Shown: positions 23,897 to 55,225 of the stretch, one piece after another
Numbering within the stretch: position 1 is the first letter of the stretch
Layout of the letters: every line of letters begins with the position of its first letter
DNA from: Candidatus Kapaibacterium sp.
GTDB taxonomy: Bacteria > Bacteroidota > Ignavibacteria > Kapaibacteriales > UBA2268
Length of the DNA stretch: 64,000 nucleotides
Assembly (NCBI GenBank): GCA_026418625.1
Contig: JAOABA010000056.1
Location: 124,001 to 188,000 of the forward strand
Reading direction: 5' to 3'
The notes under the pieces: generated by a model
Seen by the model: only the letters and a program-made list of their open reading frames with translations
What the model was told of the DNA's origin: nothing
Databases searched by the model: none
Made by a program: the position numbers and the translations under genes

Positions 23897-23944
23897 TCCA
23901 TTGGTCCTTTCACTATTCGGCTTCAGCCAAACACAAATCCATAT

Positions 23945-24050
23945 TTTACCCTCTTGAGGGCTGGCACGAAGTGATGGGGTTGATAAAATGCACTCACCAA
24001 GGATGTTGTAAATACAGGTTTCAAATTCCTTTTTCCGCAAGAGTGACTGT
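23945..24050 (-). pseudogene. Decayed T9SS sorting-domain fragment
   Basis: Read on the minus strand, this encodes Y-N-I-L-G-E-C-I-L-S-T-P-S-L-R-A-S-P-Q-E-G-K, closely matching the end of the M1 aminopeptidase just downstream (F-N-V-L-G-E-C-V-L-S-T-P-A-L-R-A-T-P-Q-E-G-N). No upstream gene body or start exists, and the reading frame then runs into unrelated repeat sequence. A degenerate ATTCCT palindrome (about 24026-24049) lies at the same place as the intact copy in the aminopeptidase. It is therefore a partial duplicate of a cargo gene end. Confidence 0.7.
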
Positions 24051-24319: not shown

Positions 24320-24339
24320 CCACTAGTTGAAAGTAGTGG
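24320..24339 (-). terminator. Hairpin directly after the M1 aminopeptidase stop
   Basis: CCACTA-TT pairs with AAGTAGTGG (one mismatch). The same hairpin follows the stop codon of the orphan fragment at 34034-34053 and of the gene ending at 38402. On the minus strand the stem is followed by a short U-poor run, so it may act as a 3' stabiliser rather than a strong terminator. Confidence 0.5.
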
Positions 24340-26325
24340 CTATTCAATTTTAACAAACCTCCCCACCCTACCACCAAGACGGACATAGTAAATTCCTGAT
24401 GGCAGGTTTGAAATATCAATCCTAAAATTCCCCTCTTGAGGAGTGGCACGAAGTGCCGGGGTTGATAATACACACTCGCCAAGGACATTAAAAATCCTGA
24501 TGTCAGATTCCTGCATTCGCAGGAATGACAAGGGAAATGAGATATTTATATATTCGCTTGATGGGTTTGGATATATTTTAATTGTATTTTTCTCTTCTTT
24601 TCTTTCGGCAACATCTGTGATAGCATAATTAAGTTCCAATAACGATATAACATTTTTCCCCTGATTAAATAAAAAACCCTGAAATTCGGGCAGTGAATCA
24701 ATTGTGTAATTGTCAATATCTTTTCTAATTTTTAAGACTTTATGGAAGTATTTTTGTTCTTTTGTGTCGAAAAAACTTACTTCAAGTGGGACATTATCAT
24801 AAATACCGTAGGAAGAATTTTGGATTTGCTTCAGGTCATAAATAGTGAATTTATAATTGCCATCATTATTTTTAGAGATATCAATTTTGAAATCATAGAG
24901 GGGCCAGCCTTTGCCATAAACCCATTGACTAAAAAACCAATCAAGTTCTTTTCCTGAATATTCCTCTAAAGCTGTTTTCAAATCTTCCGTGTTAGCTGAT
25001 GAGTAAGCAAATTTTTCAAGATAAAACTTTAATGCACCGAAAAAGAGTGAATCCCCAAGCTCATATCTCAGCATCCCAAGAATAACAGCCCCTTTTTGAT
25101 AAATAGTTTCTGGATAGTTTGATGATGGAGGTGTTCTTGGAAAATCATAAAGCGGAAAAACACCTTCCTGCTTTGCGATTGATTTCAAATATCTATCAGT
25201 TTTAGCTCTTTGATTTTCAAAATATTTATCTAATCCAAAGAGGTATTCATACCAAATACTTTCGCAATAAGTTGCGAAACTTTCGTTCAGCCAAGCATCG
25301 CGAAAATCCTTGCAGGTAACCATATCACCAAACCATTGATGTGCAAGTTCGTGAGCCGCTACCATATTTATTGAATCAGTGCTTCTGATTAGATTAGCAG
25401 GATAGGAAATCATCGTTTGATGCTCCATAGCACCGATAGGTGTATTGACATAACCTACTTTTTCGAAAGGATATTTTCCAAATCTTTGCTCGAAAGCCTC
25501 AATCATTCTTGGGACAAGACGGTATCCACGAGCAGATGCGGCACTGTCGCTACGAAGTGTGTAAATGCTGATATAGGGATTTGTGCCGGGAAGATTAATT
25601 TCTATGTAATTATCAACTGCAAAAGTCAATAAATATGTGGCAACAGGGATATTTGTATGCCAAACATATAACCTTTCCGATAAATTATCACTTAAATGAA
25701 TCAAGTCCCCAACAGAAGCCACAACTTTGTCGTTTTTAACAAGAAAGCTACCAGTGAAAGTAGCTTTATCAGACGGTAAGTCGTAGCAGGGCATCCAATG
25801 TTGAGTTGCAGAGACATAATTGTTGTAAAAACCAACACCCATAGCAAAAAGAGAACTCCCCCTTGAACCAACACCTCCCCAGTATGGACTCGAGGGTTCC
25901 GTTGTCATTCTGCCTTGATAATATATTGTCGATATTACAGTATCCCCTTTTTTACCAAAAGGAGGAATTACTTCATAATGGAAGGTTGCTGATGATTTGT
26001 CTCCAACGGGCGTTGCATCTATTTTTTGCTTTTCATAAAAGACTGAGTCAACTTTTAAATCTCTCAGGTGAAAATAAAATTTATTAGTATCGGGAGAATC
26101 TGTCCATCTAAACTTAATTCTGCAGATACCAATAGCATCGGGTGAGGGTGCTTTTGTCAAATCCAAACTGACATCATAATGAAGAACATCAAAGGCTTGT
26201 TCGATAAATTCAGTAGGTTTTCCGATTTCCTTAGCCAAAAGTAAATCATCTTTTTGAAGAAATTGAGAAAAAAGATAATTATTAAAAATAAACGCAAAAA
26301 AAATTATCCCAAAAAAATAATTCAT
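24340..26325 (-). CDS. Secreted M1-family (gluzincin) aminopeptidase with T9SS sorting domain
   Basis: 661 residues. Signal peptide about 1-20. The substrate motif is G-A-M-E-H (298-302, GxMEN-like with His for Asn). The zinc site is H325-E326-x2-H329 with E348 (N-E-S-F-A-T-Y). The domain belongs to the M1 class that removes N-terminal residues from peptides, here outside the cell. The tail from about 585 is a sorting domain (I-Y-P-N-P-S-S-E-Y-I-N-I-S). In this tail the segment S-F-L-R-M-Q-E-S is encoded by an ATTCCTGC palindrome (24507-24526), and T-P-A-L-R-A-T-P-Q-E-G by another palindromic stretch (24424-24464). Both keep frame. Confidence 0.92.
   Translation of the reverse strand: MNYFFGIIFFAFIFNNYLFSQFLQKDDLLLAKEIGKPTEFIEQAFDVLHYDVSLDLTKAPSPDAIGICRIKFRWTDSPDTNKFYFHLRDLKVDSVFYEKQKIDATPVGDKSSATFHYEVIPPFGKKGDTVISTIYYQGRMTTEPSSPYWGGVGSRGSSLFAMGVGFYNNYVSATQHWMPCYDLPSDKATFTGSFLVKNDKVVASVGDLIHLSDNLSERLYVWHTNIPVATYLLTFAVDNYIEINLPGTNPYISIYTLRSDSAASARGYRLVPRMIEAFEQRFGKYPFEKVGYVNTPIGAMEHQTMISYPANLIRSTDSINMVAAHELAHQWFGDMVTCKDFRDAWLNESFATYCESIWYEYLFGLDKYFENQRAKTDRYLKSIAKQEGVFPLYDFPRTPPSSNYPETIYQKGAVILGMLRYELGDSLFFGALKFYLEKFAYSSANTEDLKTALEEYSGKELDWFFSQWVYGKGWPLYDFKIDISKNNDGNYKFTIYDLKQIQNSSYGIYDNVPLEVSFFDTKEQKYFHKVLKIRKDIDNYTIDSLPEFQGFLFNQGKNVISLLELNYAITDVAERKEEKNTIKIYPNPSSEYINISFPLSFLRMQESDIRIFNVLGECVLSTPALRATPQEGNFRIDISNLPSGIYYVRLGGRVGRFVKIE
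24507..24526. repeat. ATTCCTGC palindrome inside the M1 aminopeptidase coding region
   Basis: ATTCCTGC, loop ATTC, GCAGGAAT. Read in the gene's frame it yields S-F-L-R-M-Q-E-S. It sits just before the I-R-I-F-N strand of the sorting domain. Confidence 0.8.
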
Positions 26326-26349
26326 ACTTTCCTTTTTTTAATATAAAAA

Positions 26350-26742
26350 TTAGAATGGACCAATGCCATCACGCTCACGGTCTGTGAATGAGCAGTCGTG
26401 ATGTTCAAGATGTCCTTTGTATTGAATTTCCATAGTTTGTTTATAATGCTCTTCGAGAGAATGACAAATTTCAGGTCTTTTAAGCCATTTGCCATTTGCA
26501 TCGGTGCAATACTTTTTATCAAGCATAATCTCGCTATTTCTATAGACTCCAAAAATTTCAACTCTGTCAGGGGTTATAGAATTTTCATCGAGATAATCAA
26601 TCAAACCACAAATAGTGTCAGCAAAATAGTGATTGGTAATGTCCTCTTCGCCCTCAATAATGAACTCCTTTGCCATATAAGTGTATGGTAGTGTGTTATC
26701 GTATTTTGAGCCCGGCACATAAAGACCCGATACAATTGTCAT
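26350..26742 (-). CDS. Hypothetical protein, 130 residues
   Basis: A soluble acidic protein with no signal peptide or recognised domain. Features seen: G-L-I-D-Y-L-D-E-N-S-I-T-P-D-R-V-E-I-F-G-V-Y-R (a compact alpha/beta segment), a Lys-Lys-Tyr-Cys stretch, and a His-rich end (H-L-E-H-H-D-C). The GAGAGG site 6 nt before the ATG supports the start. The His/Cys-rich C-terminus could bind metal, but this is a guess. It lies between the M1 gene and adenine deaminase, same strand. Confidence 0.7.
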   Translation of the reverse strand: MTIVSGLYVPGSKYDNTLPYTYMAKEFIIEGEEDITNHYFADTICGLIDYLDENSITPDRVEIFGVYRNSEIMLDKKYCTDANGKWLKRPEICHSLEEHYKQTMEIQYKGHLEHHDCSFTDRERDGIGPF

Positions 26743-26806
26743 TTTACACCTCTCAGTTGTTCGAGAACTTAATGTAAATTAACAAAAAATCAAATCCAAA
26801 ACAAAA

Positions 26807-28435
26807 TTATTCTGTGTGAATATCTGTAAAAGAAAATTTTTCTGCATCGAATAATCCTTTGTCGCTTAACTTTAATTTTGTAATAACAAGCAAAGCCAGA
26901 AAGGAAAGAGTCATAAATGGAGATTTTAGAATAGAGCCAAATGATTTTACTTTTTCCTGAAGGAGGGAATACTTTTCTGCAACTTCATAAGCATTTTCAT
27001 CGCTCATAAGACCTGCGACAGGTAAAGGTAAAGTAGTGTAATCTGTTCCATCAACCGCAACCAAGCCACCACCAAGATTGATAACAGCATTAACAGCTTT
27101 ACAAATTTCATTATCTGAAACCCCAACAGCTATTATATTATGAGAATCGTGAGCTACGCTTGATGCTATTGCTCCTGTCTTTAATCCAAATCCTTTAACA
27201 AAACCTATTGCGGGTTTTGCATTATCATATCTGTTCACAACTGCACATTTAAGGACATCTTGAGATATATCAGAGACTACATTTGAATAAATAATATATT
27301 CATCAGCAGTAGTAGAATTCGTAATAATTTCACCATCTATTACTTCAATAACTTTTATCTGCTTTCCCTTAGGCTTAACAATGAAATTATATGGAAATTT
27401 TTCTTGACAATTGAATTTGTTAACTAATTCAATTTCTATTTTTGGAAGAAGTGAATGACCGTTTTCTGCTACCTTTGTTCCTTTAATAAATGTATTTAAA
27501 ATTCGGAATTCTGATAGGTTATTAACGATAATGAAATCAGCATCATCGCCTACCCTTAACAAACCGACATCTAAATTATAATGAAGAACGGGATTGAGAC
27601 TTGCCACTTTCAGAACTTTGAAAAGATTATGACCATTTTCAATTGCTCTTTTAACCATAAGATTGATATGTCCATTGATTAAGTCATCAGGATGTTTATC
27701 GTCGCTACAAAACATTACCATATCATTATGAGTAGAAATGAGGCTGTTTAATTTATCAAAATCTTTTGCGGCGGAGCCTTCTCTGATGAGGATTTTCATA
27801 CCAAGACTAATTTTTTCCAAAGCTTCGTCGAGTTCAGTAGTCTCATGGTCAGTTAAGATACCTGCTTGAACATATTTTTCCAAGTCCTTGCCTCGAAGGT
27901 TTGGTGAGTGTCCATCAATTGGAAGACCTCTTTTCTTAGCGATATTTAATTTTTCCAAAACTTCCTCATTTTCGAAGATAACACCCGGATAGTTCATCAT
28001 TTCACTTAGGTATTTCAGATGATACTTATCAAATAATTCCTCAATGTCTTTTGAAGTAATTGTTCCACCTGAAGTTTCGAAATTTGTTGCCGGGACACAG
28101 GAAGGAGCACCAAAATAAAACTTAAAAGAAACTTTTCCCGCATTATTAATCATATACTCAACACCCTCAATTCCAAGCACATTTGCAATCTCGTGTGGGT
28201 CAGAAACAGTTGCGACGGTTCCGTGAATTGAGGCTACCTTGGCAAATTCTGAAGGGACAAGCATAGAACTTTCGATGTGAATATGAGAATCAATAAATCC
28301 GGGTAGTATGAAATTATCAAAATCGCCTTCGATTTCTTTAATTGATAAGATTTTTCCGTTTTCTATTTCGATTCTGCCGGGAAAAATCCTTTCGTTAATA
28401 ATATCAACAATATTAGATTCGAACATCAAGGACAT
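26807..28435 (-). CDS. ade: Adenine deaminase (amidohydrolase family)
   Basis: 542 residues from the ATG at 28433-28435, chosen because AAAGG lies 6 nt upstream; an in-frame ATG 30 bp further out has no such site. Metal-binding motifs of the amidohydrolase fold: G-F-I-D-S-H-I-H-I-E-S-S-M-L (N-terminal HxH), D-G-H-S-P-N-L-R-G, D-H-E-T-T and C-S-D-D-K-H-P-D. The C-terminal Ade domain (A-S-S-V-A-H-D-S-H-N-I-I-A-V-G) is complete. It converts adenine to hypoxanthine and ammonia for purine salvage. A nucleoside transporter gene lies elsewhere in this window. Confidence 0.93.
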   Translation of the reverse strand: MSLMFESNIVDIINERIFPGRIEIENGKILSIKEIEGDFDNFILPGFIDSHIHIESSMLVPSEFAKVASIHGTVATVSDPHEIANVLGIEGVEYMINNAGKVSFKFYFGAPSCVPATNFETSGGTITSKDIEELFDKYHLKYLSEMMNYPGVIFENEEVLEKLNIAKKRGLPIDGHSPNLRGKDLEKYVQAGILTDHETTELDEALEKISLGMKILIREGSAAKDFDKLNSLISTHNDMVMFCSDDKHPDDLINGHINLMVKRAIENGHNLFKVLKVASLNPVLHYNLDVGLLRVGDDADFIIVNNLSEFRILNTFIKGTKVAENGHSLLPKIEIELVNKFNCQEKFPYNFIVKPKGKQIKVIEVIDGEIITNSTTADEYIIYSNVVSDISQDVLKCAVVNRYDNAKPAIGFVKGFGLKTGAIASSVAHDSHNIIAVGVSDNEICKAVNAVINLGGGLVAVDGTDYTTLPLPVAGLMSDENAYEVAEKYSLLQEKVKSFGSILKSPFMTLSFLALLVITKLKLSDKGLFDAEKFSFTDIHTE

Positions 28436-28478
28436 ATTTGACCTTTGAAAAATTAAACTATTCAAAGTGTGAAAATAA

Positions 28479-29393
28479 TTATTTTTTCTTTATTTCGATT
28501 TTCTTTCTTGTTGTTGAACCTTTTCTATTATCTCTTGATTTCGGTGGAAATTTCGCCCCTTTACTTTTTTGGTAAGGCTTACTTCTACCCCTTGAACCAC
28601 CCATTTCTGATTTTTTAATGAGTCTTTTTTTCTGAGGAAATTTTTCTAAATTTTTTGCTTCATAGTTTTCTTCTCCTACAACTTCATCAAGGGAGGCACC
28701 CTCGAAACATACAACAAATTCTCCTTTGAACTTTTCCTTTTTCATTTTTTCGTATAGCTCCGAAAATGTGCCATAGTGGTGAGTCTCATAAGGCATTGTA
28801 AGGTTACACCCCAAATAAGCTCTTCGTGATGGCATTACCTGACTTGCAGCTTCGAGCAAAGGAAGTAATCTATATGGAGTTTCAAGCAAAACAACTGTTT
28901 TCGCTTCTTCTTTGAGTCTTTTAAGTTGCAGAATTCTTTCCTGCTTATCCCGACTAAGAAAACCTGCATAAAGGAACTGGCTTAAATCAAAACCGCTACG
29001 TACAAGTGCTGTCATAATTGAAGTCACACCGGGGACCACAACAATATCAATATGTTTAGAAAGCGCCGAACGAACAAGCATAAGTCCCGGATCCGCAAAT
29101 ACAGGTGTTCCACAATCAGAAATGAGAGCTAAATTAGTTCCAGCTTCGAGCATATTAATCAACTCAATTGTTTTTTCGAATTCATTCTGCTCGTTCAATA
29201 ACTCCATCTTTTGTTTTAAATTATATTTATGAAGAATCCTTGCTCCAACTTTTGGTTCCTCGCAAACAACAACATCAGCAGATTTAAGGACCTTCATCGC
29301 TCTTAGAGTAATATCATCAAAATTTCCAATAGGTGTAGAAACAAGAAATAATTTACCCTTTTTCTTATCCTGATTTGTTAATTCATCGGACAT
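28479..29393 (-). CDS. RsmI-family tetrapyrrole-methylase-fold rRNA methyltransferase
   Basis: 304 residues from the ATG at 29391-29393 (a TTG 15 bp upstream also keeps frame). The SAM-binding fold is the RsmI type: F-L-V-S-T-P-I-G-N-F-D-D-I-T-L-R-A, A-L-I-S-D-C-G-T-P-V-F-A-D-P-G and V-P-G-V-T-S-I. RsmI 2'-O-methylates C1402 of 16S rRNA. Two departures: the usual E-D-T-R motif after the first strand reads E-E-P-K, and the tail (about 235-304) is very basic (K-K-R, K-K-K). It may be a paralogue rather than RsmI itself. A TAAATTTG -7-like box on the minus strand lies at 29422-29429. Confidence 0.8.
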   Translation of the reverse strand: MSDELTNQDKKKGKLFLVSTPIGNFDDITLRAMKVLKSADVVVCEEPKVGARILHKYNLKQKMELLNEQNEFEKTIELINMLEAGTNLALISDCGTPVFADPGLMLVRSALSKHIDIVVVPGVTSIMTALVRSGFDLSQFLYAGFLSRDKQERILQLKRLKEEAKTVVLLETPYRLLPLLEAASQVMPSRRAYLGCNLTMPYETHHYGTFSELYEKMKKEKFKGEFVVCFEGASLDEVVGEENYEAKNLEKFPQKKRLIKKSEMGGSRGRSKPYQKSKGAKFPPKSRDNRKGSTTRKKIEIKKK

Positions 29394-29492
29394 AGGTTGT
29401 TCAAGCAAATATTTAAAAATACAAATTTACTAATTTCGTTCAGCTTATTAATTTTTTTTATGAAAAATATCATCTTTTTTTTTAATATTAGT

Positions 29493-29500
29493 TAAATTTG
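29493..29500 (+). promoter_or_regulatory. Candidate -7 element for the DUF3098-era transcript
   Basis: TAAATTTG matches TAnnTTTG, 30 bp before the DUF3098 ATG. No TTTG box is present at the expected upstream distance. Confidence 0.35.
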
Positions 29501-29529
29501 TAAGCTGAATAAATTATAATAGGGAAAAA

Positions 29530-29862
29530 ATGGCAAAACAAATTCAAAAAGGTAAAGCTGATAAATTAAAAACACAGAAAAAAAGTGGAAAAACAAAAGT
29601 TACTTGGCAATTTCCATTAACAAGACAAAACTATATTGTTTTGGGCATAGGAATTGGTATTATTATTCTTGGTTATATACTGATGGCAACTGGTATTACC
29701 GAAGAACCTGCTCTGCCTCAGGGAAAATGGAATAATCCTCTCGCTGTTTATGTTGCTCCTATTCTGCTTGTTATTGGATATTGTGTTGTTATTCCCTATG
29801 GTTTAATGATGGTTTTTAAGAAAAAACCTCAGGACATTTCAACACCTGAAGAAAATCAGTGA
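29530..29862 (+). CDS. DUF3098 membrane protein
   Basis: 110 residues. A basic N-terminus (K-K-S-G-K-T-K), then two transmembrane helices; the first begins L-T-R-Q-N-Y-I-V-L-G-I-G-I-G-I-I-I-L-G-Y, which fits DUF3098, a family found mainly in Bacteroidota and relatives. Function unknown. Its stop overlaps the start of era (GTGA), so expression of the two is coupled. Confidence 0.8.
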   Translation: MAKQIQKGKADKLKTQKKSGKTKVTWQFPLTRQNYIVLGIGIGIIILGYILMATGITEEPALPQGKWNNPLAVYVAPILLVIGYCVVIPYGLMMVFKKKPQDISTPEENQ

Positions 29863-30758
29863 CAGAAAAAACAAGAGCCGGTTTTGTTGCAATTCTTGGG
29901 ATGCCCAATGCCGGCAAGTCAACTTTTTTGAATAAGGTTCTTGACTCCAAGCTCGCTATTGTTTCGCCTAAACCACAAACAACCCGCAAAAGATTAACAG
30001 GGATCTTTACCACCGATAATTATCAAATTGTCTTTTACGACAATCCCGGCTTGCTTGAACCAAAATATGAGCTTCATCAGTCAATGAAAAGGTATATCGA
30101 AGAATCTTTGCAGGATTGTGATATAATTACTTTTTTTCTTGACATTACAAAAAGTGATTATGAAAGTAATGCTCTATTATCTGAATTTTTTGAGAATTTA
30201 AGAAATTTAGAGAAGCCCAAGTTATTGATTCTTAATAAGATTGATTTACTTGATAATCTTAAATTAGTATTGCCAATAATCAAAAAATTCGATGATCTTA
30301 AAGTATTTGATGAAATAATACCGATTTCCGCAATAAAAGGGATGGAATTGCAGGAAGTCATTAACACGATTGTTAAGTATTTACCTGAATCCCCATTTTA
30401 TTATGACCCTGAAAACATTTCTGATTTGAGCGAAAGATTTTTCGTTTCTGAAATTATAAGAGAATTAATATTTTTCTCATATCACGATGAAATTCCATTT
30501 TCAACAGATGTTGTAATCAACGAATTTAAAGAAAGAAAAAAAGGAAAATGGTTCATTTCGGCTGATATTTACGTTGAAAAAAATTCTCACAAAGGCATTA
30601 TTATTGGTGAAAATGGGAAGAAATTGAAACTTTTAGGTGAAAATGCACGATTAGCCATCGAAAGACATCTCGGAACCCCCGTCTATTTAGAGCTTTTCGT
30701 AAAATTAAAAGAAAACTGGAGGAATGACCCTCAAACATTAAAGAATTTAGGATATTAA
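29859..30758 (+). CDS. era: GTPase Era
   Basis: 299 residues beginning at GTG, which overlaps the DUF3098 stop by four bases. G1 G-M-P-N-A-G-K-S-T, G2 K-P-Q-T-T-R, G3 D-N-P-G and G4 N-K-I-D are all present. The C-terminal KH domain has G-E-N-G-K-K-L-K. Era binds 16S rRNA near its 3' end and acts in 30S subunit assembly. In G3 the usual D-T-P-G is D-N-P-G. Confidence 0.96.
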   Translation: MTEKTRAGFVAILGMPNAGKSTFLNKVLDSKLAIVSPKPQTTRKRLTGIFTTDNYQIVFYDNPGLLEPKYELHQSMKRYIEESLQDCDIITFFLDITKSDYESNALLSEFFENLRNLEKPKLLILNKIDLLDNLKLVLPIIKKFDDLKVFDEIIPISAIKGMELQEVINTIVKYLPESPFYYDPENISDLSERFFVSEIIRELIFFSYHDEIPFSTDVVINEFKERKKGKWFISADIYVEKNSHKGIIIGENGKKLKLLGENARLAIERHLGTPVYLELFVKLKENWRNDPQTLKNLGY

Positions 30759-30811
30759 TTAAAACCGACTCAGAATTTTGTGATATTTTTCATAAGATAA
30801 AGAAAATTTGT

Positions 30812-30819
30812 TAATTTTG
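30812..30819 (+). promoter_or_regulatory. Candidate -7 element for the choice-of-anchor V/Ig protein gene
   Basis: TAATTTTG matches TAnnTTTG, 26 bp before the ATG at 30845. Confidence 0.35.
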
Positions 30820-30844
30820 ATAATTGATTTTAAAGGGGCTTAAA

Positions 30845-33085
30845 ATGAAAAAACAAAATTTACGATATTCTTTAGTTTTCATTATTTTTTCAAGCTTAAT
30901 TATAGCTTTTACACTTTATCTTTATGCGGATGCAGACGGGAAAACTGGCAGGACATCATCTACTTCCGAAGGTTGTGGTAATTGCCACGGGAGTTCAAGC
31001 TCTAATGTTAATTTAAGCGTATCAAGTCAAACGGGAAGTTTTACTGTTTTACCAAACTCACAAACGATATTTACCGTAACACTGACTCATCCAAGCTTAA
31101 GTTATGCCGGCATTAATATTGGGGTAAAGACCTCTCCAACGCAAACACCCGGTGTTAATGCTGGAACATTATCTACAATATCTGGTTCTGGTTTAAAATT
31201 AGCCGGAAATCCACAGGAACTTACTCAAAGTGTTCCAAAACCTTTAAATGGTGGTAGTGTATCATTTTCTTTTTATTGGACAGCACCATCAGAACCGGGA
31301 ACATATTATTTGAGAGCTGTAGGGCTTGCTTCAGATAATAATGGAAGGGCAAGCGGTGACGAGTGGAATTGGATGCAAGTAAAAGAAATTATTGTTGCTC
31401 CCGCACAAAGCGTTACTCTTACATATCCTAACGGCGGGGAAAAGCTATGTATGGGTTCAAAAATGGATATAACTTGGAACTATAGCGAAATATCCTTCGT
31501 GAAAATTGAATTATCACCAAATGGAGGGCAATGGTATCCCTTGGAACTGGTAGATAATTATCCTGCACAAACTAAGAAATTTACTTGGACAATCCCAACA
31601 ACAATTGAACCCGGAACTGATTTTGTTATACGAATTTCGGATGCCTCAAACCCAACAATTAACGATGTCAGTAATTCAAGTTTTTCGATACTGCCAAGCA
31701 CAAGAATTACTAAACATCCTGAGAAACAAAGCGTTTGCGAGGGTTATTCTGCTTCTTTTTCTTGTTCTGCTGAGGGTGTTAACCTGAGATACCAATGGTA
31801 TAAAGGGAATAATATCATACAAGGAGCGACATTGCCTGTTTATAGTATTTCCAACCCTAAATTCTCAGACACAGGATTTTATAAAGTTAAAGTAACAGGT
31901 GATTGCGGAGCATCAATATTTAGCGATTCAGCTAAGCTTGAAATTAATCTACCCCCGAAAATCGTCAAACAGCCAGAGCCAGTCAAAGTTTGTCTTGGCG
32001 AAAAGGCTACTTTTTCAGTGAAAGCTGAGGGCTTTAATTTATCTTATAGATGGCTGAAGAATGGAATTGTTATTCAAGGTGCCACAGGTGATACTTATAC
32101 AATTGAAAGTGTAAAGGAATCGGATGCGGGTTTGTATTCGGCTCATATCTCAGGTGCTTGTCCACCTACCCAAACATCCCAAGAGGCAAGATTAAGCATT
32201 GATTTACCACCTACTATCACAGTTCAACCGCAAGATCAATTTGTAGAGGAAGGGGCTGATGTTACTTTCACTTGTGATGCTACTGGAACCTTGCCCGATT
32301 TCCAATGGCAAAAGAATGGAGAAAATATAGCAAATGAAATAGGTAAAACTCTTACAATTAAAAATGTAAAAAAGTCTGATGAAGGAAATTATACCTGTGT
32401 CGTAAAAAATAATTGTGGAACAAGAACAACTCGTCCGGCAAAGTTAACAATTAAAACAACTGATAATTATGCACTATTAACTCTGTCATCTTCAATTATT
32501 GATTTTGGTTCGGTCAACTTTGGCACCAGCAAGGATACTTTATTGAAAGGAATTATCAAAAATACTGGAAATATTAATTTAGAAATAACACAAGCTTATA
32601 TTTCTGGCACAAACGCAAGTGAATTCGAGATTCAAGGTTTGAGTTTACCTTTAACAGTTAAACCAAATGAGACTTCAGATTTAAATATTAGATTTCAGCC
32701 AATTTCCGATGGGTCTAAATCAGCAATAATTCATTTTGTATCGAATTCTCAAACTAATCCCACAATTAGCTTAATTGGTAATTCTATAAATTCAGTTGAT
32801 GAGTATGAAATTTCTCATTTGACGATTAAACCAAACCCAGCAAACGGATATATAGAAATCTCTTTACCAGAGTCATTCCTGCAAAGGCAAGAATCTTCTT
32901 CTAAATTGTCATTCCTGCGAATGCAGGAATCTGAAATTAGGATTTTCAACATCCTTGGCAAGTGCGTATTATCAGAGAAAATTCATCCGATAACTCTGAG
33001 TTATCGGATGAATATCGAACATTTGCCCGCAGGGCTTTACTATGCCCGTCTTGGTAATTGGGTGGGGAGCTTTGTGAAGATTTAG
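30845..33085 (+). CDS. Secreted choice-of-anchor V / Ig-repeat protein with T9SS sorting domain
   Basis: 746 residues from the ATG at 30845, preceded by AAAGGGG at a 7-nt gap; an upstream TTG in frame has no such site. Signal peptide about 1-28. The next 150 residues are the Reeler-like choice-of-anchor V module, beginning with E-G-C-G-N-C-H-G, a CxxCH sequence. A Kre9-like/Ig domain follows, then three Ig-like domains (each with C-x-G or C-L-G-E and Y-x-W), then a HYDIN/ASPM-like domain (D-F-G-S-V-N-F-G-T). The tail is a sorting domain. It contains palindrome-derived inserts: two ATTCCTGC copies (32875-32894, 32911-32930) and a 33-nt perfect hairpin (32981-33013). A paralogue lies at 61118. 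Confidence 0.88.
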   Translation: MKKQNLRYSLVFIIFSSLIIAFTLYLYADADGKTGRTSSTSEGCGNCHGSSSSNVNLSVSSQTGSFTVLPNSQTIFTVTLTHPSLSYAGINIGVKTSPTQTPGVNAGTLSTISGSGLKLAGNPQELTQSVPKPLNGGSVSFSFYWTAPSEPGTYYLRAVGLASDNNGRASGDEWNWMQVKEIIVAPAQSVTLTYPNGGEKLCMGSKMDITWNYSEISFVKIELSPNGGQWYPLELVDNYPAQTKKFTWTIPTTIEPGTDFVIRISDASNPTINDVSNSSFSILPSTRITKHPEKQSVCEGYSASFSCSAEGVNLRYQWYKGNNIIQGATLPVYSISNPKFSDTGFYKVKVTGDCGASIFSDSAKLEINLPPKIVKQPEPVKVCLGEKATFSVKAEGFNLSYRWLKNGIVIQGATGDTYTIESVKESDAGLYSAHISGACPPTQTSQEARLSIDLPPTITVQPQDQFVEEGADVTFTCDATGTLPDFQWQKNGENIANEIGKTLTIKNVKKSDEGNYTCVVKNNCGTRTTRPAKLTIKTTDNYALLTLSSSIIDFGSVNFGTSKDTLLKGIIKNTGNINLEITQAYISGTNASEFEIQGLSLPLTVKPNETSDLNIRFQPISDGSKSAIIHFVSNSQTNPTISLIGNSINSVDEYEISHLTIKPNPANGYIEISLPESFLQRQESSSKLSFLRMQESEIRIFNILGKCVLSEKIHPITLSYRMNIEHLPAGLYYARLGNWVGSFVKI
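32875..32930. repeat. Two ATTCCTGC palindromes in frame within a sorting domain
   Basis: Copy A (32875-32894) is degenerate; copy B (32911-32930) is perfect with loop GAAT. They encode S-F-L-Q-R-Q-E-S and S-F-L-R-M-Q-E-S. Each repeat is 24 nt with its flanks, a multiple of three. Confidence 0.8.
32981..33013. repeat. 33-nt perfect palindrome inside coding sequence
   Basis: A 16-bp perfect stem with a one-base loop, beginning ATTCATCCGATAACTC. In frame it encodes I-H-P-I-T-L-S-Y-R-M-N. It follows C-V-L-S, exactly where other genes have a different palindrome. The 33-base length keeps frame. Confidence 0.85.
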
Positions 33086-33107
33086 GTAATTATAATAAAT
33101 TAGTATT

Positions 33108-33500
33108 ATGGAGATAAATGAAAAAATAAAATATTGGGTAGATTTAGCCGAATATGACCTTGAAACAGCAAGGGCTATGCTTGATACTAAAAGATATCTT
33201 TATGTAGGTTTTATGTGCCATCAAGTAATTGAAAAATCATTAAAAGCATATTATGTCAAAATTATTAATCAACCACCACCGTTTACTCATAATCTCAGAT
33301 TCCTTTGCGATATAACAGGATTAGCAAAAGAAATAGATAATAGCATTTTATTATTTCTTTCAGAATTACAACCATTAAATATTGAGGGACGCTATCCTAC
33401 ATATAAGGATACAATTTTTAATTTATTGACAAAAGAAAAATGTGAAAGTTTAATTGAGAAAACCGAGGATCTTTTTAAATGGATAAAACAGAAATTATAG
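33108..33500 (+). CDS. HEPN-domain protein of a HEPN/MNT pair
   Basis: 130 residues. The four-helix HEPN pattern is clear: W-V-D-L-A-E-Y-D-L-E-T-A-R-A-M-L, then Y-L-Y-V-G-F-M-C-H-Q-V-I-E-K-S-L-K-A-Y-Y, then F-T-H-N-L-R-F-L. The catalytic R-x4-6-H motif of toxic HEPN RNases is not found. The gene overlaps the next by 22 nt. Known HEPN/MNT pairs act as toxin-antitoxin systems in which the nucleotidyltransferase modifies the HEPN protein. Confidence 0.88.
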   Translation: MEINEKIKYWVDLAEYDLETARAMLDTKRYLYVGFMCHQVIEKSLKAYYVKIINQPPPFTHNLRFLCDITGLAKEIDNSILLFLSELQPLNIEGRYPTYKDTIFNLLTKEKCESLIEKTEDLFKWIKQKL

Positions 33501-33784
33501 AAAAATTACAGTCATACAAAAAAGAATTACAAAAAATTATCAATTTGAAAAAAATGATTTTGTTCGGCTCTTACTCACAAGACTATGCAAGACCAGATAG
33601 CGATATAGATGTAGCTTTGGTTGTTGAAAAAATTCAGGGAGATTATTTAAATTTTCTAACTCTTATCTGGAAAATTGGAGGAGACACCGACCCAAGGATT
33701 GAACCAATTGTATTTGAAGAAAATCAGCCAGATTACTCTGGTTTCCTTGAAACAATTTTGAATACTGGAATAGAAATAAATTAA
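33479..33784 (+). CDS. MNT-type minimal nucleotidyltransferase
   Basis: 101 residues. The catalytic signature is G-S-x10-D-x-D (G-S-Y-S-Q-D-Y-A-R-P-D-S-D-I-D), preceded by K-M-I-L-F. This is the MntA/NTP_transf_2 fold. The gene starts inside the HEPN gene, so translation is coupled. It would supply the antitoxin or modifying activity of the pair. Confidence 0.9.
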   Translation: MDKTEIIEKLQSYKKELQKIINLKKMILFGSYSQDYARPDSDIDVALVVEKIQGDYLNFLTLIWKIGGDTDPRIEPIVFEENQPDYSGFLETILNTGIEIN

Positions 33785-33877
33785 TTTTTATATAAATATC
33801 ATATAAACGTAATCTTAAAATGTGAGCTATTGCACACTATCATTATAAAACCTTTAATACTTTAATAATAGTAAACT

Positions 33878-34033
33878 GAAATCAGGATTTAATATTTTCT
33901 TTTTGAGTGTGTTTTATCCGTAGAGACACAGCATGCTGTGTCTCTACAAAGGATTGACATTTCAAATTTGCCATCAGGAATTTACTTTGTCCGTCTTGGC
34001 ACTTTGGTGGGACGGTTTGTCAAGATCGAATAG
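33878..34033 (+). pseudogene. Orphan T9SS sorting-domain fragment
   Basis: From 33905 to the stop at 34031-34033, 42 codons encode E-C-V-L-S-V-E-T-Q-H-A-V-S-L-Q then R-I-D-I-S-N-L-P-S-G-I-Y-F-V-R-L-G and G-R-F-V-K-I-E. Just upstream (from about 33878) traces of E-I-R-I remain, but the frame is broken by small deletions. No cargo gene precedes it. It matches the end of the gene at 37110-38402 over the same 129 nt with about 12 differences by eye. It is a displaced copy of a sorting-domain cassette. Confidence 0.8.
33920..33947. repeat. 28-bp perfect palindrome with GTAGAGACACAG arms (orphan copy)
   Basis: Arms GTAGAGACACAGCA and its complement. An identical copy is at 38289-38316 within coding sequence. 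Palindromes beginning GTAGAGAC are a known dispersed type in bacteria. Confidence 0.8.
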
Positions 34034-34053
34034 CCACTACTTTTAAGTAGTGG
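34034..34053 (+). terminator. Hairpin after the orphan sorting-domain stop
   Basis: CCACTACTT, loop TT, AAGTAGTGG, directly after the TAG. Conserved with those at 38403-38422 and 24320-24339. Confidence 0.55.
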
Positions 34054-34111
34054 AATAAATTATTTCAGATAGTGTCTTCCGTTAGAACAGACAACCCTTT
34101 GCGCGCAAAAA

Positions 34112-34144
34112 AGATGTCCCACACCTCTAAGGTGTAGGACATCT
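34112..34144. repeat. Long hairpin, AGATGTCC...GGACATCT
   Basis: Two 15-base arms with a single mismatch around a 3-base loop (CTA). A related hairpin is at 38488-38520 in the duplicated segment. Confidence 0.7.
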
Positions 34145-34159
34145 GAAAAATATTATTTT

Positions 34160-34257
34160 GTCACTCTGAACGAAGTGAAGAGTCCATTATTTTTCAATGA
34201 CTTATGTAATATGGATTCTTCGCCTTCGGCTCTGAATGACTGGTTTTTACACAGCCT
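34160..34257 (-). mobile_element. MITE-like element, copy 3 (98-bp core, one end lost)
   Basis: Inverted relative to copies 1 and 2. It runs from GTCACTCTGAAC to the terminal ACAGCCT. The outer end beyond GTCACT is replaced by the hairpin cassette. The 98-bp length equals the same part of copies 1, 2 and 4. Confidence 0.65.
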
Positions 34258-34286
34258 CGCATATAGGAATTTCTTTCTTCCCTGTC

Positions 34287-34343
34287 ATTCCTGTGCATAC
34301 AGGAATCTCCTCAAGCCACAGAGACTCCTGCATCCGCAGGAGT
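34287..34343. repeat. Two adjacent palindromes of the ATTCCTGT / ACTCCTGC family
   Basis: 34287-34306: ATTCCTGT, loop GCAT, ACAGGAAT. 34324-34343: ACTCCTGC, loop ATCC, GCAGGAGT. Each has an 8-bp perfect stem. Nothing is recognised in 34344-34490. Confidence 0.75.
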
Positions 34344-34491
34344 GACATATTAGGTCTGCCTCCGCAGGAGCAAGGCACTCGTCACTCACATCATCCTTTC
34401 TTATCAAGGAATCTAAAAAAAAATTAATAAAAATTAATTTGGATATTAGAATTTTTAATATTACAATTGCATTTGTTAGGTGTGAAATTTT

Positions 34492-34551
34492 ACCGAACAC
34501 CGAACACCGAACACCGAACACCGAACACCGAACACCGAACACCGAACACCG
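34492..34551. repeat. Heptanucleotide tandem repeat, ACCGAAC x 8 plus partial
   Basis: Eight exact 7-bp units (34492-34547) followed by ACCG. A unit of 7 does not keep a reading frame and no gene is supported here. Length is likely to vary by slippage. Confidence 0.9.
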
Positions 34552-34599
34552 GTTTGGTTATTGTTATTTGACTTCAGATTAAAAAAAGAAACAGAAAGG

Positions 34600-34721
34600 A
34601 GGGTTAGCCTATGATTGCAATAAAAAAGCCGAACCGATAAAAGCAGTATCAGTTCGGCAAGGGTTGAAGCTGACTGCTTTCGCAGTTTCCCACCGGCTTT
34701 TGCCCTATTCCAATGGGCAAA
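34600..34721 (+). other. Structured, GC-richer segment with competing stems (possible leader RNA)
   Basis: Stems visible: GCCGAAC (34628-34634) with GTTCGGC (34652-34658); ACTGC (34673-34677) with GCAGT (34682-34686); TTTGCCC (34699-34705) with GGGCAAA (34715-34721); and AAAAGCCG (34624-34631) with CGGCTTTT (34694-34701). The first and last of these share bases, so they cannot form together. It lies 60-180 bp before the next gene. It matches no riboswitch I can name. Confidence 0.4.
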
Positions 34722-34779
34722 TTAATAAAAATTTTCAAAAATCAAAATTAATTTGTTAAATTAAAAATGGAGATGAAAA

Positions 34780-35730
34780 ATGAAAGATAAATCATTGACT
34801 TTATTATTCATTATTTTGTTGTTCTTATCAACAGTTAAAGTATATGGAGAAAATCCACCTTGTAAACCAGAAGGCGAATCTAATTGCGATTGGATTGAAG
34901 CTGGAGTAATTGAATTTCATCTTAACCCTCAAATACAAGGATACGATGAAGACTGCGAAAACTGCAAATTTTTTGTAAAATATTGGTATAGAAGATGCCC
35001 TATACCTCCTTATGGAAATGGCTTCTATCAAGATATTAGTATTACTGATATCTGGTATGATGCTGCTGATAATGATTGTCAGAATTGTTCACCTTCAAAC
35101 TTGTTCCTAAATGCACTATTCGCCATATGGGAAGAAAATGCAATGAATTTTGTTAAATTATGCACAGATGCACCAAATACTTATAATAGAATAAGCGAAG
35201 GATCTTGTTGGCGTGTTGTAACTGTCTACGTTGAACCACTTCCTCCATTTCCAGCAAAAACTGAAATACATTTAATGCCTTGCGAAGGATATGGATGCTG
35301 TCAATCTTATTATACTATTACTTTTGATTCATACTGTAATATTACCAAACTTGTAACTATTGACTTTCTTGAGGTAACCGATGATTGCCAAGACCCTTGC
35401 TTTTTTGTATGTAATCAATTAGTTTTCAATTTTCAGGCATCACAAGGTAAGTTACCGACATACGATAAGACTATTGATATGTCTGAAAAGGTAATTAATA
35501 TAATCATTAATAATTTATCTGATAATACTATTATACTAAAAAGTAAAGATGAAAAAATTGAATCTTTTTGCATCTATAACTTAATAGGTGAAAATGTCTT
35601 TACTTATTACTGTAACATTCAACAAAAAGATGGTTTATCTATTGATCTCCAATCATACCCTAAAGGAATGTATCATTTATTAGTGAAAACGAATAAAAAT
35701 TTGTATCACTATAGTGTTCTTAATTTATAG
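34780..35730 (+). CDS. Cys-rich secreted protein with diverged T9SS tail
   Basis: 316 residues from the ATG with GGAG 7 nt upstream. Signal peptide about 1-23. The mature part has many Cys (C-K-P, N-C-D-W, D-C-E-N-C-K, N-C-S, P-C-E-G-Y-G-C-C), which suggests disulfides outside the cytoplasm. The last 75 residues resemble a sorting domain (F-C-I-Y-N-L-I-G-E-N-V to the end) without a clear N-P start. Function unknown. It heads a run of three cargo genes. Confidence 0.75.
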   Translation: MKDKSLTLLFIILLFLSTVKVYGENPPCKPEGESNCDWIEAGVIEFHLNPQIQGYDEDCENCKFFVKYWYRRCPIPPYGNGFYQDISITDIWYDAADNDCQNCSPSNLFLNALFAIWEENAMNFVKLCTDAPNTYNRISEGSCWRVVTVYVEPLPPFPAKTEIHLMPCEGYGCCQSYYTITFDSYCNITKLVTIDFLEVTDDCQDPCFFVCNQLVFNFQASQGKLPTYDKTIDMSEKVINIIINNLSDNTIILKSKDEKIESFCIYNLIGENVFTYYCNIQQKDGLSIDLQSYPKGMYHLLVKTNKNLYHYSVLNL

Positions 35731-35794
35731 CATATAATGTAGTAAATTTAATGAATTATTTTTTCTTTGAGAGAATAGTATTTATTGAGCAGCT

Positions 35795-37108
35795 ATGAAA
35801 TATTTAAAAATTTATTTACAAGTATTAATATTTATTTCTGTATCATTTAATACTGAAAATACATTTTCATTCGACTTTTTTTTGCAAACGGTTGATTCAA
35901 ACGCTAAATATACTATTTTTGATATTGATTGTGCCGATTCGGCTAATTGTATTTCTTTGTCACGAAAAAATGGTCAATATCATAGGATAAGACATACAAC
36001 TGACAGGGGATTGACTTGGTTTGATTCATTTATACAACCTGATACTGGTAAATTTCCAATGGACTTATATGACATATCATATCCCGATAATGATTTTGCT
36101 TATGTTTCCTGTGATAGTGGAATTATTTTAAAAACATCTAATAATGGGAAAGAATGGGAGCGAATTTTTATCGACTCGAATAAAGCTTTAAATAAAATAT
36201 TTATGTTAGATAGAGCTCTTGGCTATTCTCTATCAAATTACGGTAAGTCTCTTTATAAAACTAAGGATGGCTGGAAAACTCATAATATAATAAGCCTTCC
36301 TGATAGCTTTCTTTTAGGGAGAACAGATATGCAGATATTTGACGAAGGAATAATATATATATATTCCCCCATTATTGAAGGCGGTAATATATTCATCACA
36401 TACAATGATGGTATTAGTTGGTCAGTTAGAAAAACACCAAAATTAGCGTATTGGATTAAGACTTATTTTTATAATAGGCAAATTGGATGGGCTTTAGGAG
36501 CTATTTCCTTTGGTTCTAAGAACTATTATTATATTTATAAAACCGAAGATTCAGGTCAAACCTGGAAATTGCAAAGCGAAATATTAAATCAAAGAAATTA
36601 TAATGACATATGTTTTACTGACTCTTTAAACGGTGTAATAGTTGGTAATTTTGAGTTAATAATGTTAACAACCGATGGTGGTAATTCTTGGAAGGAAAAT
36701 GAGATACCAAAATATGCAAATCCCTTATCATATAATAGAATAGTATTTCCATCAAAATCTTCAGCTTTTATTACGGCAAATTTAGGTGTAATTAAAAAAT
36801 GGGATAAGTCTTTAACTTCAATTTTTTCTTCTTCAGAAGCCAAAAATTTAAAACCTATTATCTATCCAAACCCGGTACAATCTGGCGATGAAATAAACAT
36901 TGATATTGCAGGATTTGAACATGGAAATTCTTCCTTTTTCATATGCGATATTTTAGGAAAACAGTTAACTACTGCAGATTATCAGTATTTGTCAATAGAT
37001 ACAAAAACAATAACATTTACTTTCGCAAGGAATGTTAAACCGGGTGTTTATCTTATTAATTTGACAATTCATAAAAAAAGGTTTAATGAAATATTAGTAG
37101 TATATTAA
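35795..37108 (+). CDS. Secreted Ycf48/BNR-like propeller protein with T9SS sorting domain
   Basis: 437 residues. Signal peptide about 1-24. Propeller motifs: H-T-T-D-R-G-L-T-W, K-T-S-N-N-G-K-E-W, Y-K-T-E-D-S-G-Q-T-W, L-T-T-D-G-G-N-S-W. Sorting domain from Y-P-N-P-V-Q-S-G to the end. It lacks palindromic inserts in its tail. Its stop abuts the ATG of the next gene (one base between), so the two form an operon of paralogues. Confidence 0.85.
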   Translation: MKYLKIYLQVLIFISVSFNTENTFSFDFFLQTVDSNAKYTIFDIDCADSANCISLSRKNGQYHRIRHTTDRGLTWFDSFIQPDTGKFPMDLYDISYPDNDFAYVSCDSGIILKTSNNGKEWERIFIDSNKALNKIFMLDRALGYSLSNYGKSLYKTKDGWKTHNIISLPDSFLLGRTDMQIFDEGIIYIYSPIIEGGNIFITYNDGISWSVRKTPKLAYWIKTYFYNRQIGWALGAISFGSKNYYYIYKTEDSGQTWKLQSEILNQRNYNDICFTDSLNGVIVGNFELIMLTTDGGNSWKENEIPKYANPLSYNRIVFPSKSSAFITANLGVIKKWDKSLTSIFSSSEAKNLKPIIYPNPVQSGDEINIDIAGFEHGNSSFFICDILGKQLTTADYQYLSIDTKTITFTFARNVKPGVYLINLTIHKKRFNEILVVY

Positions 37109-37109
37109 C

Positions 37110-38402
37110 ATGAAAAAATCAATAACTACATTATTTATGTTATTTTTTAGCATTACGGTATCAGCATTCTGCGGTGATGGTTGGTCAATTGTAGATTCGA
37201 ATAAATGGATGTGGCAATATACAGATGCGGTTTGTCTTGATAGCAATAATTGCTTTGCTGTAGCCTACTTTGCAAAATCTTATTTTGTTAATTCAACCGA
37301 TGGAGGTAAAACATGGAATCAAATTTATTCGGACACAATATTTAAAGGTAAAAACAATGAGCAATTAGAAGTGCATACAATAGCATATTTGGATAAAAAA
37401 AATATAATTTTGGGTTGTTCGCTTGGTGATTTTATTATTTCCGAAGATTCCGGAAAAACATGGCAAAAATCATCTATCGGTAAAAAAGAACAAGTAAGGG
37501 TCATTAGCTTTATTTCAAAAGACTCTGGTATTGTATTAACTGATAATTCGTTATATAAAACAGTAAACGGAGGTAAGATATGGGATAAAGTAGTATTCCT
37601 TAATCTTGGTTTCGATATTCTTCAGCATTGGAATCTTGCTTTTCCTAATAAGAATTTAATAATTATTAATTCCGATTTAAAAGGCAACCAAAATGTTTTT
37701 TTAATTTCGTATGATTTTGGTTCTTCATGGGAAATAATTCCTAATCCTGCAGGAGGAATAACTGTAGTATATTTTAAAGATGAAAAAATCGGATGGTTGT
37801 TATCAATTGGTTTTAAAAAACGTTATGAATTATATGATAGAATTTTGAAAACAACCGATGGTGGTTGGACTTGGACTGAGCAATTAAATAGATTTAGTGG
37901 TATTAACAGCTTATTATTTGACATATTCTTTTTCGATTATTACAAAGGATATGTATCAGGTATAGATGGTAAGCTATATAAAACAACAAATTCCGGAAAT
38001 AATTGGATTTTATTAAATCCTTATCCTAAAGTAGGTTATGAACCACATTTTACTTGTGTTACAATGCCATCAAAAAATACCTGTCTTGTTTTTACAAATA
38101 ACGGCGAAATATTAAGATATGATGAGTCAACTCTCAATGTAAATAATAAAATATCGGATGAATTATCCATCTTCCCCAATCCAGCAATAGATTATATTGA
38201 AATAATTTATAATGTAGAGACAGGTCTCAGACCTGCCTATACTGAGGGAATAAATATTTTCAACATACTTGGAGAGTGTGTTTTATCCGTAGAGACACAG
38301 CATGCTGTGTCTCTACAAAGGATTGATATTTCAAATTTGCCTTTAGGAATTTACTTTGTCCGTCTTGGTGATTGGGTTGGGAGGTTTGTCAAAATTGAAT
38401 AG
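37110..38402 (+). CDS. Secreted Ycf48/BNR-like propeller protein with repeat-bearing T9SS sorting domain
   Basis: 430 residues, paralogue of the preceding gene. Signal peptide about 1-20. Motifs: N-S-T-D-G-G-K-T-W, I-S-E-D-S-G-K-T-W, Y-K-T-V-N-G-G-K-I-W, K-T-T-D-G-G-W-T-W. The sorting domain begins F-P-N-P-A-I-D-Y-I-E-I. Within it, V-E-T-G-L-R-P-A-Y-T-E-G is encoded by a stretch with the palindrome CAGGTCT/AGACCTG (38221-38235). V-E-T-Q-H-A-V-S-L-Q is encoded by the 28-bp palindrome at 38289-38316. The end G-R-F-V-K-I-E and following hairpin are shared with two other loci. Confidence 0.88.
   Translation: MKKSITTLFMLFFSITVSAFCGDGWSIVDSNKWMWQYTDAVCLDSNNCFAVAYFAKSYFVNSTDGGKTWNQIYSDTIFKGKNNEQLEVHTIAYLDKKNIILGCSLGDFIISEDSGKTWQKSSIGKKEQVRVISFISKDSGIVLTDNSLYKTVNGGKIWDKVVFLNLGFDILQHWNLAFPNKNLIIINSDLKGNQNVFLISYDFGSSWEIIPNPAGGITVVYFKDEKIGWLLSIGFKKRYELYDRILKTTDGGWTWTEQLNRFSGINSLLFDIFFFDYYKGYVSGIDGKLYKTTNSGNNWILLNPYPKVGYEPHFTCVTMPSKNTCLVFTNNGEILRYDESTLNVNNKISDELSIFPNPAIDYIEIIYNVETGLRPAYTEGINIFNILGECVLSVETQHAVSLQRIDISNLPLGIYFVRLGDWVGRFVKIE
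38289..38316. repeat. 28-bp perfect palindrome inside coding sequence
   Basis: Identical to 33920-33947. Arms begin GTAGAGACACAGCA. It lies after C-V-L-S in the sorting domain and keeps the frame together with its flanks. Confidence 0.85.
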
Positions 38403-38422
38403 CCACTACTTGAAAGTAGTGG
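38403..38422 (+). terminator. Hairpin after the propeller gene stop
   Basis: CCACTACTT, loop GA, AAGTAGTGG, followed by an A-rich run. Same hairpin as at 34034-34053. Confidence 0.5.
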
Positions 38423-54904: not shown

Positions 54905-55225
54905 TCACTCAACTATTTCTTCTTTTTTCTTTAATTCTAATAATTCTCTTTTAGCTCTTGCTTGAGCGCTATCCTGAATCCTGAGGAATTCCTCAGGATT
55001 CTTTGTATATTCAAAATACTTATCCCTAAAAGACTCCTTCGTATATCCATATTTTTCAAACACTTTCAAAACTTTGGGATTTGCTTCTGCGGTATCAGGA
55101 TAGATAGCTCTTAAAATGAGTATTTCCTTTTGGGTCTCAATAAATCTGTTCTTTTCTTCTTCGGAATTCGAACAAGAAAATAAAAAAATTAAAGAAAAAA
55201 CTATTATGATATTGCTAATATTCAT
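54905..55225 (-). CDS. Small lipoprotein, hypothetical
   Basis: 106 residues. Signal peptide with lipobox L-F-S-C followed by S-N-S-E-E-E. Mature part is a charged helical segment containing V-F-E-K-Y-G-Y-T-K-E-S-F-R-D-K-Y-F-E-Y, similar in layout to short DUF4296-type lipoproteins of Bacteroidota, not assigned firmly. Likely anchored in the outer or inner membrane. Confidence 0.75.
   Translation of the reverse strand: MNISNIIIVFSLIFLFSCSNSEEEKNRFIETQKEILILRAIYPDTAEANPKVLKVFEKYGYTKESFRDKYFEYTKNPEEFLRIQDSAQARAKRELLELKKKEEIVE

Follow-up and report, generated by a model that had tools for sequence, protein, structure and literature searches.

Palindromic repeats of several families at two fixed sites of type IX sorting domains in Candidatus Kapaibacterium and its relatives

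Three genes in a 64,000-nucleotide stretch of a Candidatus Kapaibacterium sp. genome (contig JAOABA010000056.1, positions 124,001 to 188,000; hereafter the window) encode proteins that end in a type IX secretion system (T9SS) sorting domain carrying short palindromes inserted in frame. An earlier note on this DNA had placed these elements at two positions of the C-terminal domain (CTD), here called sites A and B, in an M1 peptidase gene (24340-26325, minus strand) and in the genes at 30845 and 37110. All of the palindromes it named exist, their positions being as stated or off by no more than a few bases, and the window's other TIGR04183 CTDs are free of such elements, as it had said. The domain is a T9SS type A CTD: its Por_Secre_tail profile match lies at the very end of the protein, and its fold is a beta-sandwich. 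In known T9SS, secretion involves cleavage of the CTD.

The decorated CTD of the M1 peptidase lies at 24343-24579 on the minus strand (PF18962 E 1.6e-13; TIGR04183 35.5 bits; AlphaFold2 (AF2) model with pLDDT 86). Its site A is filled by ATTCCTGCATTCGCAGGAAT (24507-24526, minus), a repetitive extragenic palindrome (REP) resembling the CGTC-1 class that reads SFLRMQES, and its site B by GGCAC-GAA-GTGCC (24445-24457, minus; on that strand GGCAC-TTC-GTGCC), which falls within TPALRATPQEG and is adjoined by a weak CCCCTC/GAGGAG arm pair. Abutting the stop codon, a CCACTA..TAGTGG palindrome (24320-24339, minus) belongs to a downstream repeat mosaic in which several palindromes follow in succession, and a second, decayed CTD 3' half lies further downstream (23941-24020, minus).

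The CTD of the gene at 30845 (32825-33082, plus; PF18962 E 1.6e-9) scores above the PF18962 cut-off and below that of TIGR04183. It holds two copies of the M1 site-A REP, one with a single mismatch (32875-32894, plus; SFLQRQES) and one exact (32911-32930, plus; SFLRMQES), and at site B a 33-nt perfect hairpin with 16-bp arms and a 1-nt loop (32981-33013, plus; IHPITLSYRMN). In the CTD of the gene at 37110 (38163-38399, plus; PF18962 E 1.1e-11), site A carries a 29-nt palindrome beginning GTAGAGACAGGTCT (38214-38242, plus; VETGLRPAYT), with arms slightly decayed at the 3' end, and site B a 28-bp perfect palindrome (38289-38316, plus; VETQHAVSLQ). We found a further copy of this 28-nt palindrome at 33920-33947, within a non-coding orphan copy of a CTD 3' half that contains stop codons (33869-34030, plus). 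A CCACTACTT..AAGTAGTGG palindrome follows this orphan copy (34034-34053, plus), and another stands right behind the stop codon of the gene at 37110 (38403-38422, plus). This type, which includes the palindrome behind the M1 gene, has 37 copies in the sequence we sampled, all intergenic, and may act as a terminator where it follows decorated CTDs. Elsewhere in the window, an unrelated 26-bp perfect palindrome, GAATCCTGAGGAATTCCTCAGGATTC (54976-55001), lies in a 106-aa putative lipoprotein open reading frame (ORF) that is not a T9SS domain.

Across the 3.3-Mb genome that holds the window (G000, 58 contigs), these elements are repetitive. The site-A motif has 6 matches in the window against 0.17 expected, and the corresponding ATTCCTG element has about 123 genome copies against 0-1 for a reversed control; the 28-nt and 33-nt site-B elements have 11 and 15-17 copies, respectively, with none for either control. 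G000 encodes at least 150 TIGR04183 domains, and the decorated CTDs form a single subclass among them, marked by the C-terminal end G-D-W-V-G-R-F-V-K-I-E. By eye, about 20 of the 21 in-gene copies of this subclass are palindromic, or decayed-palindromic, at both sites, while some 130 other CTDs do without palindromes. Site A carries a GTAG-ended 29-mer (VETGLRPVST), the CGTC-like REP (SFLRMQES), a ATCAACCC type (INPTVNHRVD) or others; site B carries the 33-mer (IHPITLSYRMN), the 28-mer (VETQHAVSLQ), the GGCAC/CCCCTC composite (TPALRATPQEG) or HPLIPSQEG, and the types at the two sites combine freely. The proposal of two fixed sites, each occupied by mutually unrelated elements, thus holds across about 20 CTDs of G000 as well as in relatives, and what is conserved is the site, not the element.

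In related genomes, different perfect palindromes occupy the same two sites. In G025, nearly all of 20 CTDs carry perfect palindromes at both, with four types at site A and at least four at site B, and further types occur in G005, G016, G033, G019, G011, the nearest genome (G001, of the same genus as G000) and record L210. The last of these (JAGXRP010000053.1) carries a decorated CTD of the Kapabacteria type on a contig labelled Desulfobulbaceae, which is probably misbinned or misnamed. The INPTVNRRVD palindrome of G025 has all 15 of its 15 genome copies at site A, and a second type, KPSEGFEPSEG, has 10 at site A, 13 in intergenic DNA and none inside another clear gene, in a census of 23 of its roughly 30 copies. 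These counts treat as CTDs, by eye, two INPT matches and one KPSEG match that our script had labelled as possible other ORFs, and as intergenic one KPSEG copy (L387) overlapping a 177-codon open frame that we judged spurious. Comparison of the GTAG-ended site-B 28-mers across copies and species revealed that 100% of cells are paired and that 7 of 12 pairs have changed on both sides, although these 28-mers may be separate elements, in which case pairing is something that all of them share and not proof that selection maintains it.

Structural modeling of the M1 CTD with AF2, from a 41-row alignment, predicted strands at residues 13-17, 29-33, 39-44, 54-58, 65-71 and 74-80. Sites A (residues 21-28) and B (43-53) coincide with the two lower-confidence loops of this model, in line with the earlier suggestion that the insertions fall in loops. 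The RgpB CTD (7pq4) is the second-ranked PDB fold match, at a modest E of 5e-3.

To compare the sorting domain with other coding DNA, we took a background rate from ~855 kb (26% of the genome), chosen around T9SS genes and REPs and not as a random sample, drawing CTD bases and other coding bases from the same stretches and counting as strong any palindrome with a score of at least 12 and a GC content of at least 28%. The clustering proposed for CTDs appears here as a strong enrichment: CTD coding DNA contains 11 strong palindromes per 36 kb (10, plus the copy C52:5754 that the script had missed), compared with about 3 per 701 kb of other coding DNA after removal of C52:5754 and one orphan, a density ~70-fold higher (binomial tail p ~1e-12). 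The roughly three remaining cases are a transposase gene's own copy (see below), one palindrome just beyond the end of a CTD and the one at window position 54976. Intergenic DNA holds 47 strong palindromes per 118 kb. Of 63 CGTC-like REPs in the sampled sequence, 55 are intergenic, 6 lie at site A and 2 fall in an ORF of doubtful status adjacent to an orphan; the CTCCTGC and GTCCTACACC REP families are likewise intergenic, with a sole exception in that same doubtful ORF.

The two orthologues that we examined, both from G001, have plain CTDs. The M1 genes share 77% DNA identity over ~2,460 bases and homology stops at the CTD, while for the gene at 30845 it ends at window position 32799, just before the domain. 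These plain orthologue CTDs indicate, in agreement with the earlier note, that the extra residues are not ancestral, and that the CTD end was either replaced or has diverged beyond recognition. Replacement is favoured by the near-identical copies found elsewhere in the genome.

Such near-identical CTDs occur on unrelated genes, and copies remain homologous for ~250 bp beyond the stop codon, across the palindrome mosaic. A further 30 copies are orphans without a gene. Most sit downstream of a gene read in the same direction, in many cases not a T9SS cargo gene, and some contain stop codons. By eye, about seven orphans start at an intact or near-intact site-A palindrome, suggesting that the copied unit often has its 5' edge at this palindrome. 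Two tandem orphan copies, ~384 bp apart, stand behind a T9SS cargo gene at G000:C36:4170-4706 (L204). We considered coding selection on the orphans and rejected it, as the changes unique to a single orphan look neutral (a comparison of low power); their excess of synonymous differences was probably inherited. The 33-nt and 28-nt site-B palindromes sit mostly inside CTD copies, orphans included, and on that ground we dropped the idea that these two elements inserted independently, gene by gene. Of the original proposal, the elements at fixed sites therefore stand, while separate insertion into each gene does not, since many copies are carried along in a repeated CTD 3' cassette.

Several of the palindromes also match those around REP-associated tyrosine transposase (RAYT) genes. 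G000 has a single RAYT-type gene (L188:3112-3684 in G000:C14, minus strand; NF047646 E 3.4e-15), which was recovered with NF047646 and not with the PF01797 profile alone. Its product contains THFH and YIHQNP motifs, and the 33-nt site-B palindrome recurs in variant form on either side of the gene and, in frame, within it (L188:3460-3492). Among relatives, three have RAYTs that exceed the NF047646 cut-off, and a good part of the RAYT loci, though not the rest, are ringed by repeated palindromes. Seven of 20 CTD palindrome types strongly match palindromes at RAYT loci, whereas composition-shuffled palindromes gave none in 200 trials. Matching pairs include the site-A 29-mer of G000, found in the gene at 37110 and adjoining a RAYT in G001, the site-A type of G016 with that genome's own RAYT locus, and the site-A type of G005 with a locus in G010; the 28-nt, CGTC-like and INPT types were not seen to flank a RAYT. 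As matches are more frequent across the family than within one genome, they point to membership in RAYT-associated REP families and not to a given RAYT moving a given copy.

Two observations concern the transposases themselves. Each of the RAYT ORFs L188, L294 and L304 contains an in-frame palindrome of its own, located in roughly the same position downstream of the HUH strand. In L303 (G016:C33, ~49106-49459), a 1118-aa ORF resembling a restriction-modification methylase contains, in frame, a Y1/RAYT-like transposase that is flanked on each side by paired AACAATGGAGCATGCTCCATTGTT palindromes.

By its architecture, the ATTCCTG element, TTGTC-ATTCCTGC-GAAT-GCAGGAAT-C, shares with CGTC-1 REPs (PMC3733652) an 8-bp stem starting with AT, a 4-nt loop and a TGTC head. 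Its tail is CTG instead of CCA, and for this reason we call it CGTC-1-like and do not file it as a member. We also rejected the 28- and 29-nt elements as GTAG REPs; their GTAG and a CTAC base-pair within a perfect palindrome, leaving no unpaired tag.

We propose, with a probability of about 0.72, that REP palindromes settled in two tolerant loops of the sorting domain and that the decorated 3' end then spread by recombination. The palindromes would be REP elements, several belonging to the type that accompanies RAYT (HUH/Y1) transposases, and RAYTs may have moved them. Site A would occupy the surface loop between strands 1 and 2, and site B that between strands 3 and 4; both would tolerate 8-15 extra in-frame residues where the beta-sandwich core and other coding DNA do not, and we infer that this tolerance, not a benefit, explains the choice of sites. 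The decorated 3' end (the CTD from site A on, the stop codon and the downstream REP mosaic) would then have spread as a repeated cassette, with copies taking the place of the 3' ends of unrelated cargo genes and others ending up in intergenic DNA as orphans. Recombination between repeats, or gene conversion, is the probable route, perhaps with palindromes as breakpoints.

Several points weigh against this model. We saw neither RAYT activity nor a recent insertion, nor did we find an empty and filled allele pair with target duplications at one site. At least 10 of the 20 CTD types, including the CGTC-like site-A and 28-nt elements, have no clear RAYT match, and the RAYT of G000 scores 56 bits against a curated cut-off of 80. 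The 33-nt and 28-nt elements may have spread only with the CTD and not by transposition of their own. Finally, all of the genomes are metagenome-assembled (MAGs), and some orphan junctions could be repeat-induced misassemblies.

A stronger version of the cassette idea, which we regard as possible though not probable, holds that REP palindromes at site A and after the stop codon delimit a transferable CTD unit that was moved or recombined onto new genes, with the orphans as a donor pool.

An explanation that we find unlikely is that the hairpins were domesticated for a benefit to the host, whether by stabilizing the mRNA 3' end, by pausing translation before the stop codon or by offering a useful surface on the CTD loops. 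In its favour, pairing stays perfect as the sequence varies, almost all CTDs of the subclass in G000 and G025 are decorated at both sites, and site-B palindromes such as the 33-nt element provide the conserved R-M-N of the next strand. However, the undecorated majority of G000 CTDs, the free variation of element type and the presence of the same palindromes in non-coding orphan copies all argue against such a benefit, and young copies would stay perfect palindromes by copying alone.

It is similarly doubtful that copying accounts for the whole pattern, each type having entered an ancestral CTD once and then spread by duplication or gene conversion with no preference for a site. The exclusive site-A location of the G025 INPT element, the concentration of 33-nt and 28-nt copies in CTDs and the near-identical CTDs of unrelated genes fit this explanation. 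Yet the at least four unrelated elements per site, their free combination and the genus-specific sets would demand many separate entries, and the KPSEG and CGTC-like elements are widespread outside CTDs too.

A mutational origin, in which template switching perfected imperfect inverted repeats in the loops with no mobile element involved, would account for palindromes of almost any sequence and for paired changes on both arms; it is nevertheless very improbable, as the same palindromes recur at other places and near RAYT genes much more often than a shuffled null predicts. Chance or an assembly artefact is scarcely credible: 150-400 bp repeats can be misjoined in MAG data, but the pattern is shared by several members of one family, among them G033, an assembly of 6 contigs, and the enrichment is far from random expectation.

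In-frame palindromes have precedents. Intragenic REPs of the GTAG and CGTC superfamilies (Di Nocera 2013; PMC3733652) are, like the elements described here, 20-40 nt in-frame palindromes within genes, and their hits are dispersed among numerous genes, of which many function in repair, with two Xanthomonas recB genes bearing REPs at the same site. In the genomes studied here, by contrast, hits within genes fall solely in two homologous loops of a secretion domain, where several REP families occur together. The Rickettsia palindromic elements (RPEs) invoked in the earlier note are similar in being in-frame palindromes in unrelated proteins, but they lie at many positions and not at two homologous sites within a copied host domain. 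Except for the site-A ATTCCTG element, similar to the CGTC-1 class to which RPE-6 belongs (PMC3733652), the comparison is no more than an analogy, and several of the other elements match RAYT-flanking palindromes.

Bacteroidetes RAYTs are known to have atypical hairpins, and subclass 2.4 has a REP within the transposase gene (PMC6006769). The RAYT loci described here resemble REPtrons of subclasses 2.6 and 2.4 in their Y1 transposase, HUH-type motif (here THFH), YIHQNP and flanking hairpins, and differ in that the palindromes also fill CTD loops; the text of PMC6006769 gave no match to a secretion signal. The host domain agrees with T9SS type A sorting domains (TIGR04183/PF18962; RgpB CTD 7pq4) in family, C-terminal position and beta-sandwich fold, but its loops A and B hold mobile-element sequence and its 3' half also exists as dispersed non-coding copies. 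Taken singly, in-frame REPs, RAYT-REP pairs and T9SS CTDs have all been described before, whereas the recurrent use of two homologous secretion-signal loops by multiple families appears to be new: in the open-access literature we found no report of multi-family REPs in two secretion-signal loops or of a dispersed CTD cassette, and nothing relevant on T9SS with palindromes or Kapabacteria.

In-frame mobile palindromes have previously been scattered curiosities; here, unrelated REP families recur at the same two loops in several genera, which provides a natural experiment on protein insertion tolerance and on REP site choice. How unrelated proteins come to share a sorting signal is an unsettled matter for T9SS, and the repeated cassette offers a concrete way for such a signal to spread. 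If the unit is indeed transferable, new secreted cargo would have been created or re-equipped in this way.

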